From the NCBI GenBank assembly GCA_020845855.1, contig JADLEZ010000178.1:1-37809 (forward strand): a stretch of 37,809 nt of DNA, written 5' to 3'. Every line of letters begins with the position of its first letter. Within the stretch, counting starts at the first letter, position 1. This stretch comes from Burkholderiales bacterium. GTDB taxonomy: Bacteria; Pseudomonadota; Gammaproteobacteria; Burkholderiales; Casimicrobiaceae. The translations under genes and the position numbers were made by a program. Shown piece after piece: positions 12,600-37,809 of this stretch. The notes under the pieces were generated by a model. That model was not told the DNA's origin. It ran no database searches and saw only the letters and a list, made by a program, of their open reading frames with translations.

Positions 12600-13145
12600 A
12601 TGCGCCCCTCACCCGCTCGATGCTGCGCATCTCGCACCCTCTCCCCGCGCATGCGGGGAGAGGGTAGGGGTGAGGGGGGCTCACCCGCTCGATGCTGCGC
12701 ATCTCGCACCCTCTCCCCGCGCATGCGGGGAGAGGGTAGGGGTGAGGGGGGCTTCTCCCTGATCGAGGTGCTGGTCGCCTTCGTGATCCTCGCGCTCGTC
12801 GCCACGGCGCTGTTCGGTCTCTTCTCCTCCTCGCTCAACAACGCCGCGGCGGCGGAGGAATGGAGCCGCGCGCTGCTCCTCGCGGAGTCGCGGCTGGACG
12901 CGGCCGCGGCCGCGCAGCCCTTGCGGGAGAACACCGAGCGCGGCGGCGACATGGGCGGCCGCATCGTGTGGGAGACGCGCGTTGCGCCGTACACCGCGCC
13001 GGACGTCGACCCCGACCTCGAGCGCGCGACGGAAGCGCTGCCGACGCGCCTGTACCGGGTGACGGTGGAGGTGCGCTACAAGGGCGGCGACGGCAAGGAG
13101 CGCACGCTGTCGCTCGCCACGCTCAAGGTGGGGCAGAAGACATGA
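12600..13145 (+). CDS. gspI: Pseudopilin GspI with repeat-derived leader
   Basis: 'EGG^FSLIEVLVAFVILALVATALFGLFSSSLNNAAAAEEWSRALLLAESRL'. ATG at 12600; in-frame ATGs at 12651 and 12723 lie within the repeat copies. Confidence 0.88.
   Translation: MRPSPARCCASRTLSPRMRGEGRGEGGSPARCCASRTLSPRMRGEGRGEGGFSLIEVLVAFVILALVATALFGLFSSSLNNAAAAEEWSRALLLAESRLDAAAAAQPLRENTERGGDMGGRIVWETRVAPYTAPDVDPDLERATEALPTRLYRVTVEVRYKGGDGKERTLSLATLKVGQKT
12608..12751 (+). repeat. Two perfect tandem 72-bp REP-like units
   Basis: Unit ctcacccgctcgatgctgcgcatctcgcaccctctccccgcgcatgcggggagagggtaggggtgagggggg at 12608-12679 and 12680-12751. Stem CCCTCTCCCCGC-GCAT-GCGGGGAGAGGG. Confidence 0.95.
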
Positions 13146-13921
13146 GTGGGACTAGGAGGCCGCGGCGCGTGAGCACCGCAGGGCCGCCCCAAGGTGCGAA
13201 CTGCGCCCCCCCGGGGGGCAGCGAGCAACGCTCCATCGCGAGCGTGGGGGCCCACTACCGCGGCTTCACGCTGGTCGAGCTCCTGATCGCGCTCTCGCTG
13301 TTCGCGCTCATGTCCGCGGTGCTGTTCGGCTCGCTGCGCCTTGCCGGCCGCAGCGCCGACGCCGGCGACGAGAAGGTGCAGGCGAGCTCCGGCATGCGCC
13401 TCGCGGGCGAGTACCTGCGCACCCAGCTTTCGGCGCAGCACCCGCAGCGCATGCGCAAGATCCACGAGTTCCCGCTGCTGTTCGGCGGCAATCAGGACGA
13501 GATCCGCTACGCGGCGCCGCTGCCGGCGCGGGTCGGCTTGGGCGGCATGTGGTACTGGCGACTGTCGGTGGCGAAAGTGCCTGGCAAGGAGCACGAGGCT
13601 CTCGTGCTCGACCGCATGATTCCCGACCTCAACGCGACCGACATGCCGACGTTCGCCGAGTCCGAGCGCTCGGTGCTCGCTGACGACATCAAGTCGCTCA
13701 AGGTGTCGTACTACGGGCGCGACCGCGGCAGCGCGCTCGACGTGGCGCCCACGTGGCGCGCGAGCTGGGAGGACTCGCAGCTGCTGCCGGTGCTGATCCA
13801 GCTCGAGGTCGCGCCGCGCGTCGGCGAGCCCTGGCCGCCGCTGCTGATCGCGCCGCGCGCGGCGCCCGAGGCCGGCTGCCGCGCGTGGGACACCATCCGC
13901 ATCCAATGCGTCGGCGCATGA
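13142..13921 (+). CDS. gspJ: Pseudopilin GspJ with repeat-derived leader
   Basis: 'HYRG^FTLVELLIALSLFALMSAVLFGSLRLAGRS'; ATGA overlap with gspI. Alternative in-frame GTG starts at 13169 and 13244. Confidence 0.9.
   Translation: MSGTRRPRRVSTAGPPQGANCAPPGGSEQRSIASVGAHYRGFTLVELLIALSLFALMSAVLFGSLRLAGRSADAGDEKVQASSGMRLAGEYLRTQLSAQHPQRMRKIHEFPLLFGGNQDEIRYAAPLPARVGLGGMWYWRLSVAKVPGKEHEALVLDRMIPDLNATDMPTFAESERSVLADDIKSLKVSYYGRDRGSALDVAPTWRASWEDSQLLPVLIQLEVAPRVGEPWPPLLIAPRAAPEAGCRAWDTIRIQCVGA
13169..13253 (+). repeat. Dispersed GC-rich repeat, variant with GGGGGGCAGCGAG...GAGCGTGGGGGCC end
   Basis: gtgagcaccgcagggccgccccaaggtgcgaactgcgccccccccggggggcagcgagcaacgctccatcgcgagcgtgggggccc; left half matches the copy at 29106. 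Confidence 0.75.
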
Positions 13922-27930: not shown

Positions 27931-29109
27931 ATGGCGGCCCTGGAATTCACCGGCGAGCGCTTCGTGCCGGGTGTGGCCGGCGAGATCGCGCACGAGCACT
28001 GGCATCGCTACGCGTTCGCGCGCCGCTTCGCCGGCGGGCAACGCGTGCTCGACGTTGCGTGCGGCGAAGGCTACGGCAGCGCGCTCCTCGCCGCCGTGTC
28101 ACGGAGTGTTATCGGGGTCGACATAGCCGACGCCGCTGTCGCCCATGCGCGTGCGGCCTACGCCGGCACGCCGAACCTGCGCTTCGAAACCGGCTCGGCG
28201 GCGGCGCTGCCGCTGCCCGCGGCGAGCGTCGATCTCGCGGTTTCCTTCGAGACCCTCGAGCACCTGCCGCGCGAGCTGCAGCCGCGCATGCTCGCCGACA
28301 TCGGGCGCGTGTTGACTGACGAGGGCGTGCTCGTGCTGTCGGTGCCGAATCCGGCCGAGTACTCGCTGGCGCGCGGGTACTGCAATCCGTTCCACGAGCA
28401 CGAGCCGCCGCGCGACGAGCTTGCCGCGCTGCTCGCGACGCACTTCCCGGCGCAGCGCTGGTACCGCCAGCGCCGCTACCTCGGGTCCGCGATCTGGAGC
28501 GAGGACGCAGCCGAGGCGTGCGAGGCGTGGGTTGACGGCAACGGCACGGTCGACCGTGCGCCGCCGCCCGCCGCGATGTATCACGTCGTGGTGGCCGCGA
28601 AGCGCGCGGAGGTATTGCCGCCTCCCGCGCCGATGCTGTCGCTGTTCTCCGACCGCGAGGAGTCGGAGCTTGCGCGCCTGGACGCGCAGGCGGCGGAGTT
28701 GCTCCGACTCGACGGCCTGCTCGCGGAGCGCGACGGCGCGCTCGACAAGTCGGCCGCGCACATCCGGCACCTCGAGGAGCTCGTCGCGTACCGCGAGCGG
28801 CTGGTCGAGGAGCGCGACGCGCAGCTCGCGGCGGCCAGCGCGTCTGTGGCCGACGCACTCGGTGAGCGCGACACGGCAAGAGAGGAGTGCGAGCGCGAGG
28901 CGGCCGCCCGCACGGGCGAAGCGGCCGCGCGCGCGGCCGAGGCGGCGTCGGCGCGGCAGGCGATCGGCGCCCTGGAGGCCGAAGCGCAGCGGCTCGAGCG
29001 CGCGGTGACGGCGCAGGAGCGCATCATCGCCTACCGCCAGAGCGTGCGCTGGTGGCTTGCGCTGCCCTGGCTGCGCTGCAAGCTTCTGTGGCAGCGCCTG
29101 CAACGATGA
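27931..29109 (+). CDS. SAM-dependent methyltransferase with C-terminal coiled coil
   Basis: 'RVLDVACGEGYGSALLAAV...VIGVDIADAAVAHARAAY', 'VSFETLEHLPRELQPRMLADIGRVLTDEGVLVLSVPNP'; Glu/Arg/Ala-rich heptad region, then 'SVRWWLALPWLRCKLLWQRLQR'. Confidence 0.88.
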   Translation: MAALEFTGERFVPGVAGEIAHEHWHRYAFARRFAGGQRVLDVACGEGYGSALLAAVSRSVIGVDIADAAVAHARAAYAGTPNLRFETGSAAALPLPAASVDLAVSFETLEHLPRELQPRMLADIGRVLTDEGVLVLSVPNPAEYSLARGYCNPFHEHEPPRDELAALLATHFPAQRWYRQRRYLGSAIWSEDAAEACEAWVDGNGTVDRAPPPAAMYHVVVAAKRAEVLPPPAPMLSLFSDREESELARLDAQAAELLRLDGLLAERDGALDKSAAHIRHLEELVAYRERLVEERDAQLAAASASVADALGERDTAREECEREAAARTGEAAARAAEAASARQAIGALEAEAQRLERAVTAQERIIAYRQSVRWWLALPWLRCKLLWQRLQR

Positions 29110-29179
29110 GCGCCGCAGGGCCGCCCCAAGGCGCTCGCCCCCTGGGGGGAGGCGGCGCGCAAGCGCCGCTTCGGGGGGA
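29106..29179 (+). repeat. Dispersed GC-rich palindromic repeat, copy forming the GT2-GT4 N-terminus
   Basis: atgagcgccgcagggccgccccaaggcgctcgccccctggggggaggcggcgcgcaagcgccgcttcgggggg. Confidence 0.85.
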
Positions 29180-31445
29180 TCATACAGGCGCCCATTTCGT
29201 CATCGATATCGTCATCCCGGTGTACAACGCGCCGGACGACGTGCGCGAGTGCCTGGCGAGCGTGCTCGCGCACCTGCGCCCGGACGTGCGCGTGGTGCTG
29301 ATCGACGACGCGTCGCCGGATCCGCGCATCCGCGAACTGTTCGGCCAGATCGAAGCGCGCGCGCATCCGCAGGTGGTGCTGATGCGCAACGAGGCGAACC
29401 TCGGCTTCACCGGGACCGCCAACCGCGGCATGCAGCTTTCGCGCGCGGACGTGATCCTGCAGAACTCGGACACCATCGTCACCGCCGGCTGGCTCGACGC
29501 GATCATGCACTGCGCGGCGACCGATGCGCGCATCGGGACCATCACGCCGTTCTCGAACAACGCCGAGATCCTGTCCTTCCCGAATTTCTGCGAGAACAAC
29601 CCGTGGCCGCCGGGCGCCGACCCCGCACCCATCGCCGCGGCGATTCGCGCGGTCGCCGTGCCCACGTACCCCGATTTGCCGACCGGCGTGGGATTCTGCA
29701 TGTATGTCCGGCGCGCGCTGATCGACGACGTCGGCATCTTCGATCCGGTGTTCGGCGCGGGATACGGGGAGGAGAACGACCTCTGTCGGCGCGCCGCGGC
29801 CGCGGGCTGGCGCAACGTGCTGGCCGACAACGCCTTCGTGGTGCATACCGGCGGCCGCTCGTTCGCGGGCCGCAAGGACGAGCTCGGCCCGCGCAACATC
29901 GAGGTGCTCGTCGCGCGCCATCCGCACTACCTCGACATGGTGCGCGCGTACATCGCTGCCGATCCGCTGCGGCCGTTGCGGCAGGCGGCGCAGATGCGGC
30001 TCGCGGCGGATGCCACACCCGGACGCGGCGTGCTCCACGTCACGCACCATCACGGCGGCGGCACCGAGGCGCACGTGCGCGGGCTCATCTATGGCTCGCG
30101 CGAGCGCTGGCGGCACTACCTGGCGATCGCGGTTGGCGACCGCTGGCAGGTCGAGGAACATCGCGGCGACGGGACCGTCGTCACTTTCGACTTCTGGCGG
30201 CCGCCGCAGGAATCCTGGCGGCAGTTCGTAAGGGGCGTGTGCGCCACGTTCGGCATCGGCCTCGTGCACCTGCACCACATTTCCGCGAGCCGCGCCGGCA
30301 TTGTCGAAGCGCTCGCGGATTTGCCCATCCCTTACGGCTACACCGTGCACGACCTGTTTGTCGCATGCCCGACCATCACCTTCCACGGTCCCGACGGCAT
30401 GTATTGCGGTGCGCAGGTGGACCCTGCGGTGTGCCGGCGCTGCCTCGCCGCGCAGGAAACGTTCGCGGGCGTGGACATCGAGGCCTGGCGCACGCAGCAC
30501 CACGCGCTCCTCCGCGGCGCTGCGTTCCGCATCGCGCCGTCGCAATGGGCCGCGGACACGCTCGCGCGCTACTTTCCCGACTGCCCGGCCACCGTGATCG
30601 AGCACGGCAGCCACGCCGGCTTCGCATCGCCCAGGCCGGGGGCGCGCACGGTCGTGCTGCTGCCGGACGACGGCGTGCCGACCGTCGCGGTGATGGGAGC
30701 GATCGGCCCCGACAAGGGCGCGCGCCGCTTAGAGCGCCTGGTGGAGATCGCGCGCAAGCAGGGTGCGCGCGTGCGCTTCGTGCTCGTCGGCTACCTCGAC
30801 TTCCAGCACGAGCCCATGCAGTCGCCGGATGCGCGGTTCACCGTGCACGGTCACTACGACACGTCCGACTTGCCCGAGCTGTTCGCACACTACCGGGTGC
30901 GCCTGGTGCTGTTTCCGTCCGCGGGACCGGAATCGTTCAGCTACACGCTGTCGGAGGCGTGGGCCCTCGGGAGGCCCGCGCTGGTCCCGCCGATCGGCGC
31001 GCTGCCGGAGCGGGTGCGCGCCATCGGCGCGGGGTTCGTGATGACCGACGCCGAGTGGCGCGACGAAGCGTCCATGCTGGACCGCATCCTGCGCGCGCTC
31101 GCCGACGATGACGCACTGCGCACGGCGGCCCAGCGCGCCCGCGAGCGCGCGCCTGACGCGCAGGCGCGGATGACCGAAGCGACACTCGCGCTGTACGAGG
31201 CCGCGGCCGATCCTGCCGCGCATCGCAGCCTCGCGCCGCTCGAGCCCGCGCGGCTGCGCTACGCGTTGAGCTACGTGGCGTGGGAGCCGCCGCCGCCCAC
31301 GAACCCGCGCCGACCCGCCGCGCCGGGACTGTTCGCACGCCTTGCGCGCGCGGCGGCGAATCGGCGCCACACGACCGCCGGACGCTTCCTGTTCCGCATC
31401 GCTCCGGCATCGGTGGTGTCGGCGCTGCGCGCGCGGCTCAAGTGA
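29106..31445 (+). CDS. Bifunctional glycosyltransferase: GT2 domain fused to GT4 domain
   Basis: GT2: 'VIDIVIPVYNAPDDVRECLASVLAHL..VVLIDDASPD', 'NEANLGFTGTANRGM', 'GAGYGEENDLCRRA'. GT4: 'VLHVTHHHGGGTEAHVRGLI', 'CPTITFHGPDGMYCGAQVDPAVCRRCL', 'PESFSYTLSEAWALGRPALVPPIGALPERV'. Confidence 0.92.
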   Translation: MSAAGPPQGARPLGGGGAQAPLRGDHTGAHFVIDIVIPVYNAPDDVRECLASVLAHLRPDVRVVLIDDASPDPRIRELFGQIEARAHPQVVLMRNEANLGFTGTANRGMQLSRADVILQNSDTIVTAGWLDAIMHCAATDARIGTITPFSNNAEILSFPNFCENNPWPPGADPAPIAAAIRAVAVPTYPDLPTGVGFCMYVRRALIDDVGIFDPVFGAGYGEENDLCRRAAAAGWRNVLADNAFVVHTGGRSFAGRKDELGPRNIEVLVARHPHYLDMVRAYIAADPLRPLRQAAQMRLAADATPGRGVLHVTHHHGGGTEAHVRGLIYGSRERWRHYLAIAVGDRWQVEEHRGDGTVVTFDFWRPPQESWRQFVRGVCATFGIGLVHLHHISASRAGIVEALADLPIPYGYTVHDLFVACPTITFHGPDGMYCGAQVDPAVCRRCLAAQETFAGVDIEAWRTQHHALLRGAAFRIAPSQWAADTLARYFPDCPATVIEHGSHAGFASPRPGARTVVLLPDDGVPTVAVMGAIGPDKGARRLERLVEIARKQGARVRFVLVGYLDFQHEPMQSPDARFTVHGHYDTSDLPELFAHYRVRLVLFPSAGPESFSYTLSEAWALGRPALVPPIGALPERVRAIGAGFVMTDAEWRDEASMLDRILRALADDDALRTAAQRARERAPDAQARMTEATLALYEAAADPAAHRSLAPLEPARLRYALSYVAWEPPPPTNPRRPAAPGLFARLARAAANRRHTTAGRFLFRIAPASVVSALRARLK

Positions 31446-34400: not shown

Positions 34401-34708
34401 TCGGCGGCGTGAACGGGACGATCGAAGCGCTCGCGATGAATGTGCCCGTGGTCACGCTCCTCGGCAAGCGGCACGGCGAGCGCACCACGTACTCGATCCT
34501 CGCCAACGCGGGCGTCACGCAGACCATCGCGCAAACGGGACCCGAGTACGTGGCCGTTGCCGTGCGGCTCGCCGACGACGCCGAATTTCGCCACACCGTG
34601 CGCTCCGCGATCGCGGCCGGCATCGCGCACTCGCCGCTGACCGACATGCCCGCGTACACGCGTCACCTCGAAGCGGCGTATCTCGCGGCGATGGCAGCTT
34701 CGCCATGA
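31445..34708 (+). CDS. Large TPR protein with OGT-like (GT41-like) catalytic region
   Basis: Two TPR blocks; 'LRIGYLSGDLRNHVMGKMMWQAVQYHDRDRFELHFYSNAR', 'DLLVDLSTHTQGSRPGVLARKPARVQLTHVASAGVVGL', 'LIDFVLDTMPFGGVNGTIEALAMNVPVVTLLGKRHGERTTYSIL'. Confidence 0.87.
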   Translation: MSSGGFATWLARGRAHQEQGRAADAIPCYRRAAREDPRSPVPHFHLGEAWWQLGLAREAVDAWRASARIDATFLPPRLALAEAAMAQGDYALAREIGDEAAALAPADARARATAHAARAAAGDRAALDACARDVAADPSLAHAPSLAGALARALAQARDGDEFARLVAALTPHAATLPTALLAALAESGVMLPDAVAARRVTGDDVESLRRLAVALHARQPHLAGHFTAAYCALCAALPRPAVPLLWPQRTGGTLLRVAWLLPPQASASWHAAAEALRSVAGARPLSLVVVCTADADATRAALAGAVNAAVFVTLELPAGANAAKVLAARDCDVLVDAAGLAAPTARMLLARPARAVWALDVGAPLHREPVIDRAFAGARDLERAMAGVDLTGGTLSADALAGAWDAAVLAHRDGNLAQASAGYANVLAHQPRFAPALHLAGVAAAAINDRTRAQEAFAAALAAEPGFSEVRVAAADLALAEGDASRALTLIEEGLARSPGEDALWRALGRIHLRRRDTQAAIAACERVLLLAPADADAHFEHGVALQRKGDAPAGARAYQRALTFRPDMIAADFNLGVLFQEQGNREAAIAAYTQVLRADPAQVGAYKHLGDVLLAAGDIDAWLANFRAFETHCPSALPLAVYALEACQHLADFDRLQRYLDGLRRDEFHARDEDELADCLESLLYLLLFFDIEPSVLLRLAQAYDGVVPRVYGARVELPARRKPGPLRIGYLSGDLRNHVMGKMMWQAVQYHDRDRFELHFYSNARARDEWTQRFEGVAHRFVEIAGLDDAAAVAEVLADDLDLLVDLSTHTQGSRPGVLARKPARVQLTHVASAGVVGLSQVGFKLTDRYADVPESQEFMIERLLAMEGCVFPFRRVEPAASHPFHRSALGISSDAVVIGAFVSPLKLSRRCLRLWREVLARVPRALLAFSPANPAMRASYVRLAAAAGIAGERLLFLPQGRDDAQNQARYYLIDFVLDTMPFGGVNGTIEALAMNVPVVTLLGKRHGERTTYSILANAGVTQTIAQTGPEYVAVAVRLADDAEFRHTVRSAIAAGIAHSPLTDMPAYTRHLEAAYLAAMAASP

Positions 34709-34893
34709 GCGCCGCGGAGCCGCCTCGAGGCGCGCCGCGCGGCCTCCTTGGCGAGTCGGCGATGGCGCGCGACGAGTGCGCGTCGGCCGCCATCCACGCT
34801 CGCGGACGCGCGCTGCGCGCCTGGGCTTCGCCCCGCTCGCATGGACGGCCTGGGGGGAGGCGGCGCGCAGCGCCGCTTCCGGGGGATCGATGA
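34705..34893 (+). repeat. Composite copy of the dispersed repeat with internal insertion, forming a bridging mini-ORF
   Basis: 5' half atgagcgccgcggagccgcctcgaggcgc; 3' half cctggggggaggcggcgcgcagcgccgcttccggggg; the intervening ~110 bp is unrelated. Open MSAAEPPRGAPRGLLGESAMARDECASAAIHARGRALRAWASPRSHGRPGGRRRAAPLPGDR*. Confidence 0.75.

Positions 34894-37515: not shown

Positions 37516-37809
<294 letters not shown>

Follow-up and report, generated by a model that had tools for sequence, protein, structure and literature searches.

The stretch of DNA analysed here (hereafter the window), 37,809 nucleotides in length, represents contig C178 of a fragmented 5.84 Mb genome (695 contigs, about 8% contamination) that is related to Burkholderiales MAGs. 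On its forward strand, a methyltransferase gene (27931-29109; Methyltransf_25, PF13649, E=2e-19) is followed by a gene encoding a GT2-GT4 fusion (29106-31445; Glycos_transf_2, E=2e-14; Glyco_trans_1_4, E=2e-9). The two genes share an ATGA at 29106-29109, which constitutes their junction and the putative target site of a dispersed element, with the methyltransferase stop codon TGA (29107-29109) located within the left arm of this element and overlapping the ATG at 29106. Reading from this ATG gives MSAAGPPQGARPLGGGGAQAPLRGDHTGAHFVIDIVIPVYN and then the GT2 core, with the first ~25-29 residues derived from the element and with the next in-frame start codon, a GTG, found only inside IPVYN at +114. 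The preliminary description of this junction had placed the stop codon and the overlapping start codon correctly, and its observation that no ATG, GTG or TTG lies between the repeat and the GT2 core agrees with the sequence. GT2-GT4 orthologues in relatives are devoid of the N-terminal stretch encoded by the element, and the predicted enzyme has thus gained about 25 residues from it. The start codon at 29106 had been further proposed to be newly supplied by the repeat. Since relatives without the element already contain the bare ATGA overlap at this junction, this start codon is ancestral and re-created upon insertion.

The element is headed by a 31-nt hairpin, TGAGCGCCGCAGGGCCGCCCCAAGGCGCTCG (29107-29137, forward strand; covariance model score 54.7 bits), in which the arms TGAGCGCC and GGCGCTCG flank the conserved core GCAGGGCCGCCCCAA. 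Its stem comprises 8 bp and its loop of 15 nt is nearly invariant, while the arms vary in step with their complementarity maintained, as in TGAGCACC/GGTGCTCG, TGAGTGCC/GGCACTCG, TCAGTCCC/GGGACTGA and others. In the alignment, 92% of cells are paired, double changes are found in six of the eight pairs and 29 double-change cells are counted as compared to 5.7 in shuffles, although these cells do not represent independent events, as some arm types may stem from few lineages. This one hairpin is combined with several 3' modules, some of which are shorter or longer than the types designated (a) and (b). Module (a), with the pattern CCCCC..GGGGGGAGGCGGCGC..GCGCCGCTTCGGGGGG, follows about 18 hairpin copies in the genome and at the methyltransferase junction occupies 29138-29178, where RNA folding predicts a CCCCC-TGGGGGG-AGGCGGCGC-GCAAG-CGCCGCTT-CGGGGGG helix. 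Module (b) has the pattern CCCCC..GGGGGGCAGCGAGC..GCGAGCGTGGGGG. A 3' tail, ATCATACAGGCG (29179-29190, end approximate), recurs as ATCATACAAGCG in other copies and in the tandem array L018. The element therefore exceeds the 74 bp (29106-29179) initially assigned to the repeat, as the second G/C helix extends to 29178 and the tail to about 29190. Tandem arrays of copies also occur, with a unit length between 75 and 92 nt; units of 75, 78 and 87 nt correspond to whole codons. A 66-nt subtype (MSPQGRPKGELPRSATARRVVQ-stop; d-type mini-ORF) exhibits similar behaviour in several copies. A second dispersed element has the GGGCCGCCCC core hairpin in common and continues with GATGCAAAAGGCGC...GCGGACGCCTTTTGCATCG (L003:417, L014:69, L020:210, L054, L057, L064, L069), and a different 72-nt palindromic repeat (CACCCTCTCCCCGC..GCGGGGAGAGGGTAGGGGTGAGGGGGG) is present as a perfect tandem duplicate at 12608-12751 of the window, between pseudopilin-like genes.

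Other copies in the window, all on the forward strand, reveal additional arrangements. The copy at 1151-1246 contains a GTGA at the upstream stop codon (1152-1154) and a 31-codon mini-ORF that ends 7 nt before the UbiA ATG at 1254. At 13169-13252, a copy with module (b) begins with GTGA and its frame is open into a prepilin-like protein (..HYRGFTLVELLIALS), with the upstream stop codon (TAG) located eight codons earlier. A composite of two modules at 34705-34893 has ATGA at both ends and carries a 62-codon mini-ORF, whose TGA (34891-34893) overlaps with an ATG at 34890 in the frame of the TPR/OGT-like gene that follows. The coincidence of the left edge with the upstream stop, as initially described, thus holds at 1151, 29106 and 34705, with the exception of 13169. 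Similarly, all these copies are open in the repeat frame as had been noted, with 1151 and 34705 being closed mini-ORFs separate from the following gene. The copy at 13169-13252 appears to encode a prepilin-like leader that ends just before GFTLVELL, and because prepilin peptidase is expected to remove such a leader, insertion at this place may do little harm.

The repeat is not a chance occurrence, since the pattern TGAGCNCCGNNGGGCCGNCCC, covering the left half with at most one mismatch, has 47 matches in the genome and its reversed control none. With a covariance model based on 29 distinct hairpins, 93 matches are obtained in the source genome. The same model matches 22 of the 41 genomes in a sample of relatives, all 22 belonging to the family of the window, and ten of 150 genomes of the order, spread across several families. 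In samples of the class (276 genomes) and the phylum (397 genomes), matches are confined to members of the order; no match was obtained in the genomes sampled outside the order, a sample without mycobacteria, and weak copies escape the strict filters used in the large surveys. The few loci read in more remote families of the order contain the hairpin, with the base preceding TGA being less strictly restricted (CTGA in L236). Many copies are located near contig ends in three genomes (G013, G019 and G020; e.g. L079, L138 and L141), suggesting that the repeat breaks assemblies.

For the analysis of gene context, taken from about 150 sequence stretches, genes were called with a home-made, self-trained coding model around 167 distinct copies, 65 of them from the source genome and all others from relatives within its genus, so that the counts include related copies that are not independent. 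In 95 TGA-type copies from the source genome and relatives, TGA is preceded by A in 74, by G in 20 and by T in one, and never by C, i.e., DTGA with D being A, G or T. At 51 TGA stops without the element in loci of the source genome, the corresponding numbers are A 24, G 11, C 9 and T 7. When only stop codons are compared, A precedes TGA in 19 of 20 stops with the element vs 24 of 51 others (p = 1e-4). For copies that are first in an array and have sense-coding sequence upstream, the upstream stop coincides exactly with the TGA of the element in 38 of 50; in six of the remaining 12 it lies 0-8 codons earlier in the TGA frame, and in the other six it is in other frames. At the right edge, a second target tetranucleotide is observed in about a third of copies, and many copies are without such a duplication of ATGA.

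A comparable regularity is found in the reading frame. When followed from the overlapping ATG or GTG, 33 of the 62 copies with a sense gene downstream run open into that gene and another 21 end in a stop codon that overlaps the next start as an exact 4-nt overlap of the ATGA type. Thus, 54 of 62 copies are open or overlapping in this frame, as compared to 10 and 24 of 62 in the other two frames of the same copies. Of 28 copies in reverse orientation, 17 contain a mini-ORF whose ATGA start lies 26 codons ahead of its terminal TGA in the hairpin arm, and the start of the following gene is often found 4-9 nt beyond this TGA. The frame of the element is open in nearly all copies whatever their context, and open frames are common at the G+C content of these genomes; hence, openness is a trait of the family and does not prove selection at each site.

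Sites without the element are found in relatives at several junctions. The methyltransferase-to-glycosyltransferase junction is conserved across the genus and contains ATGA without the element in L073/L218, L074/L222, L216, L217, L220 and L223, GTGA in L224 and no overlap in L215, L219, L221 and L229. In the closest relative (L072/L214), with 70% identity in the gene core, this position is occupied by ATGAGCGCCGCAGCGCCTTCGGGGGG, and this junction (ATGAGCGCCGCA-GCGCC-TTCGGGGGG) is best read as a remnant of the element after an internal deletion. At a permease junction, an ATGA flanks the element on either side in the source genome (L003), and a single ATGAGC is present in relatives (L200, L206 and L208). 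In the case of anmK, the copy in L041 is located at the start codon itself; the gene in L178 simply begins with ATGAGC, and no upstream stop overlaps this start.

Four features can be read directly from the sequences, namely the restriction to DTGA, the preference for one frame, the covariation in the hairpin and the sites without an insertion in relatives, and together they point to a MIRU-like mobile repeat that inserts at DTGA and leaves operon translation nearly intact, a reading to which we assign a probability of roughly 0.7. Insertion would mostly occur at an ATGA or GTGA in which the stop of one gene and the start of the next overlap, and sometimes at a start-codon ATGA without an overlapping stop. 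The left edge would retain the target tetranucleotide, and the element would bring its own open frame of about 25-30 codons. A ribosome that finishes an upstream gene at TGA can restart at an overlapping ATG by termination-reinitiation. By this route, a ribosome ending at the upstream TGA would re-initiate at the overlapping ATG, translate the element and either go on in the same frame into the following gene (as at 29106) or stop at a second, re-coupling ATGA (as at 34705). We infer that the element is mobile in trans. No transposase linked to it was found, and the single Y1_Tnp gene of the genome has unrelated GGGGTCAGAGTCGA repeats on its flanks. The preliminary proposal, in which a family of repeats keeps or restores translational coupling, is partly supported: its central idea agrees with the enrichment at TGA stops (no C among 95 copies; 38 of 50 exact upstream stops), with the one preferred open frame and with the repeat-free orthologues with a bare ATGA, and the proposal fails in the part concerning a newly supplied start codon.

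The most serious alternative, which we regard as unlikely, is that insertion takes place anywhere and that purifying selection in operons retains only those copies in which stop, start and frame are left intact. Most copies are indeed situated in co-directional gene pairs, and the frame bias is what such selection would leave behind. However, the DTGA rule is kept in ten copies with antisense sequence upstream (A5, G4, T1, C0 before TGA) and in 26 copies whose upstream sequence is scored as non-coding, where selected coupling is improbable, and the exact placement on TGA in 38 of 50 is tighter than viability requires. Since the rule is maintained with antisense sequence upstream, it seems to reflect the insertion site and not coupling alone, and we infer an insertion preference beyond selection alone as the cause of the pattern. 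Somewhat less likely still is a spread without any transposase, by recombination or gene conversion, with the start motif ATGAGC serving as microhomology. At the left edge, ATGAGCG is similar to a start common among genes and seen in several empty sites, no transposase is linked to the element and the arrays look like products of unequal recombination, but there is little homology between the right edge and the targets, and copies in reverse orientation make use of different sequences (ATGAACGACC...). An ordinary palindrome of the REP or terminator type located after stop codons, with the start overlap due to the ATGA common in operons and the open frames due to high G+C, is very improbable: stable predicted hairpins (z about -1.9), a beginning at the stop codon and the frequency of A at TGA stops in general (24 of 51) would be in line with it, but not the excess of A at stops with the element, the anmK copy on a start codon that no upstream stop overlaps, the second, exact overlap at the right edge of 21 copies together with the frame control, the absence of a GTAG tag or the unlinked RAYT.

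A mobile repeat that targets DTGA finds its closest counterpart in the MIRUs, for which Supply et al. reportedly named the same DTGA target. MIRUs of Mycobacterium are of 46-101 bp and form tandem arrays (PMC12548453, PMC3914561), appear mobile, insert at start codons and carry an internal ORF that is coupled with a spacing of -4 nt (PMC12548453, citing Supply et al. 1997). The element described here is similarly short (about 66-92 bp), dispersed as well as arrayed in tandem, and positioned at start codons at gene junctions, judging from the site rule, the exact upstream stops and the empty ATGA sites. An internal ORF with a 4-nt overlap to the next gene is matched here in architecture only and in 21 of 62 copies, with 33 others being fused. 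The element differs from MIRUs, whose hosts are mycobacteria, by its occurrence in Burkholderiales, by a hairpin with a conserved loop and co-varying arms that hold the letters of the stop and start codons, by its presence in both orientations with different arms and by the in-frame fusion of about half of the copies that have a sense gene downstream. Because MIRUs have been described as behaving alike (PMC12548453), the suggestion that this is an undescribed kind of system cannot be sustained. The element can be called MIRU-like by description and architecture and is apparently new in Betaproteobacteria; a full-text search of open-licence papers found no report of such an element in Burkholderiales, which constitutes weak evidence of absence.

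Other families of palindromic repeats are less similar. Rickettsia palindromic elements (RPE) and intragenic CGTC/GTAG REPs are likewise palindromes able to add N-terminal residues, with CGTC repeats having loops of 4-5 nt, GTAG repeats having a GTAG tag and both being mostly located elsewhere relative to genes (PMC3733652). In contrast, the element here has a conserved loop of 15 nt and is located on stop/start overlaps. Membership in CGTC REPs or RPE, with a CGTC tag, a stem of 8-9 bp and a loop of 4-5 nt, is not supported, as the 8-bp stem is combined with the longer loop and CGTC precedes some reverse copies only. With REP/RAYT systems it has in common that short dispersed palindromes lie close to gene 3' ends, and membership or mobilisation by RAYT was rejected, as the GTAG tag is absent and the single Y1_Tnp/RAYT gene is not flanked by the element. 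The repeats that flank this gene (L071; C26:9964-10293) form a separate repeat family. An Rfam search above the gathering score yielded no family for the element and 16S rRNA only, within the window, where the 5' end of a 16S rRNA gene (37516-37809) coincides with the contig end, the contig thus breaking in an rRNA gene.

For the genomes that carry this element, some protein N-termini are repeat-derived, which should serve as a warning to annotators. The richest genomes contain some 50-90 natural insertions, some of them with matched empty sites, which could be used for measuring termination-reinitiation coupling. It is possible, and we put it forward tentatively at somewhat less than even odds, that this is a betaproteobacterial mobile element whose arms hold interchangeable stop and start codons, so that it may act as a coupling cassette in either orientation, repeatedly giving operon proteins new N-termini, as a convergent and independent version of the MIRU strategy. 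If true, landing on stop/start overlaps to spare operon translation would extend beyond mycobacteria.
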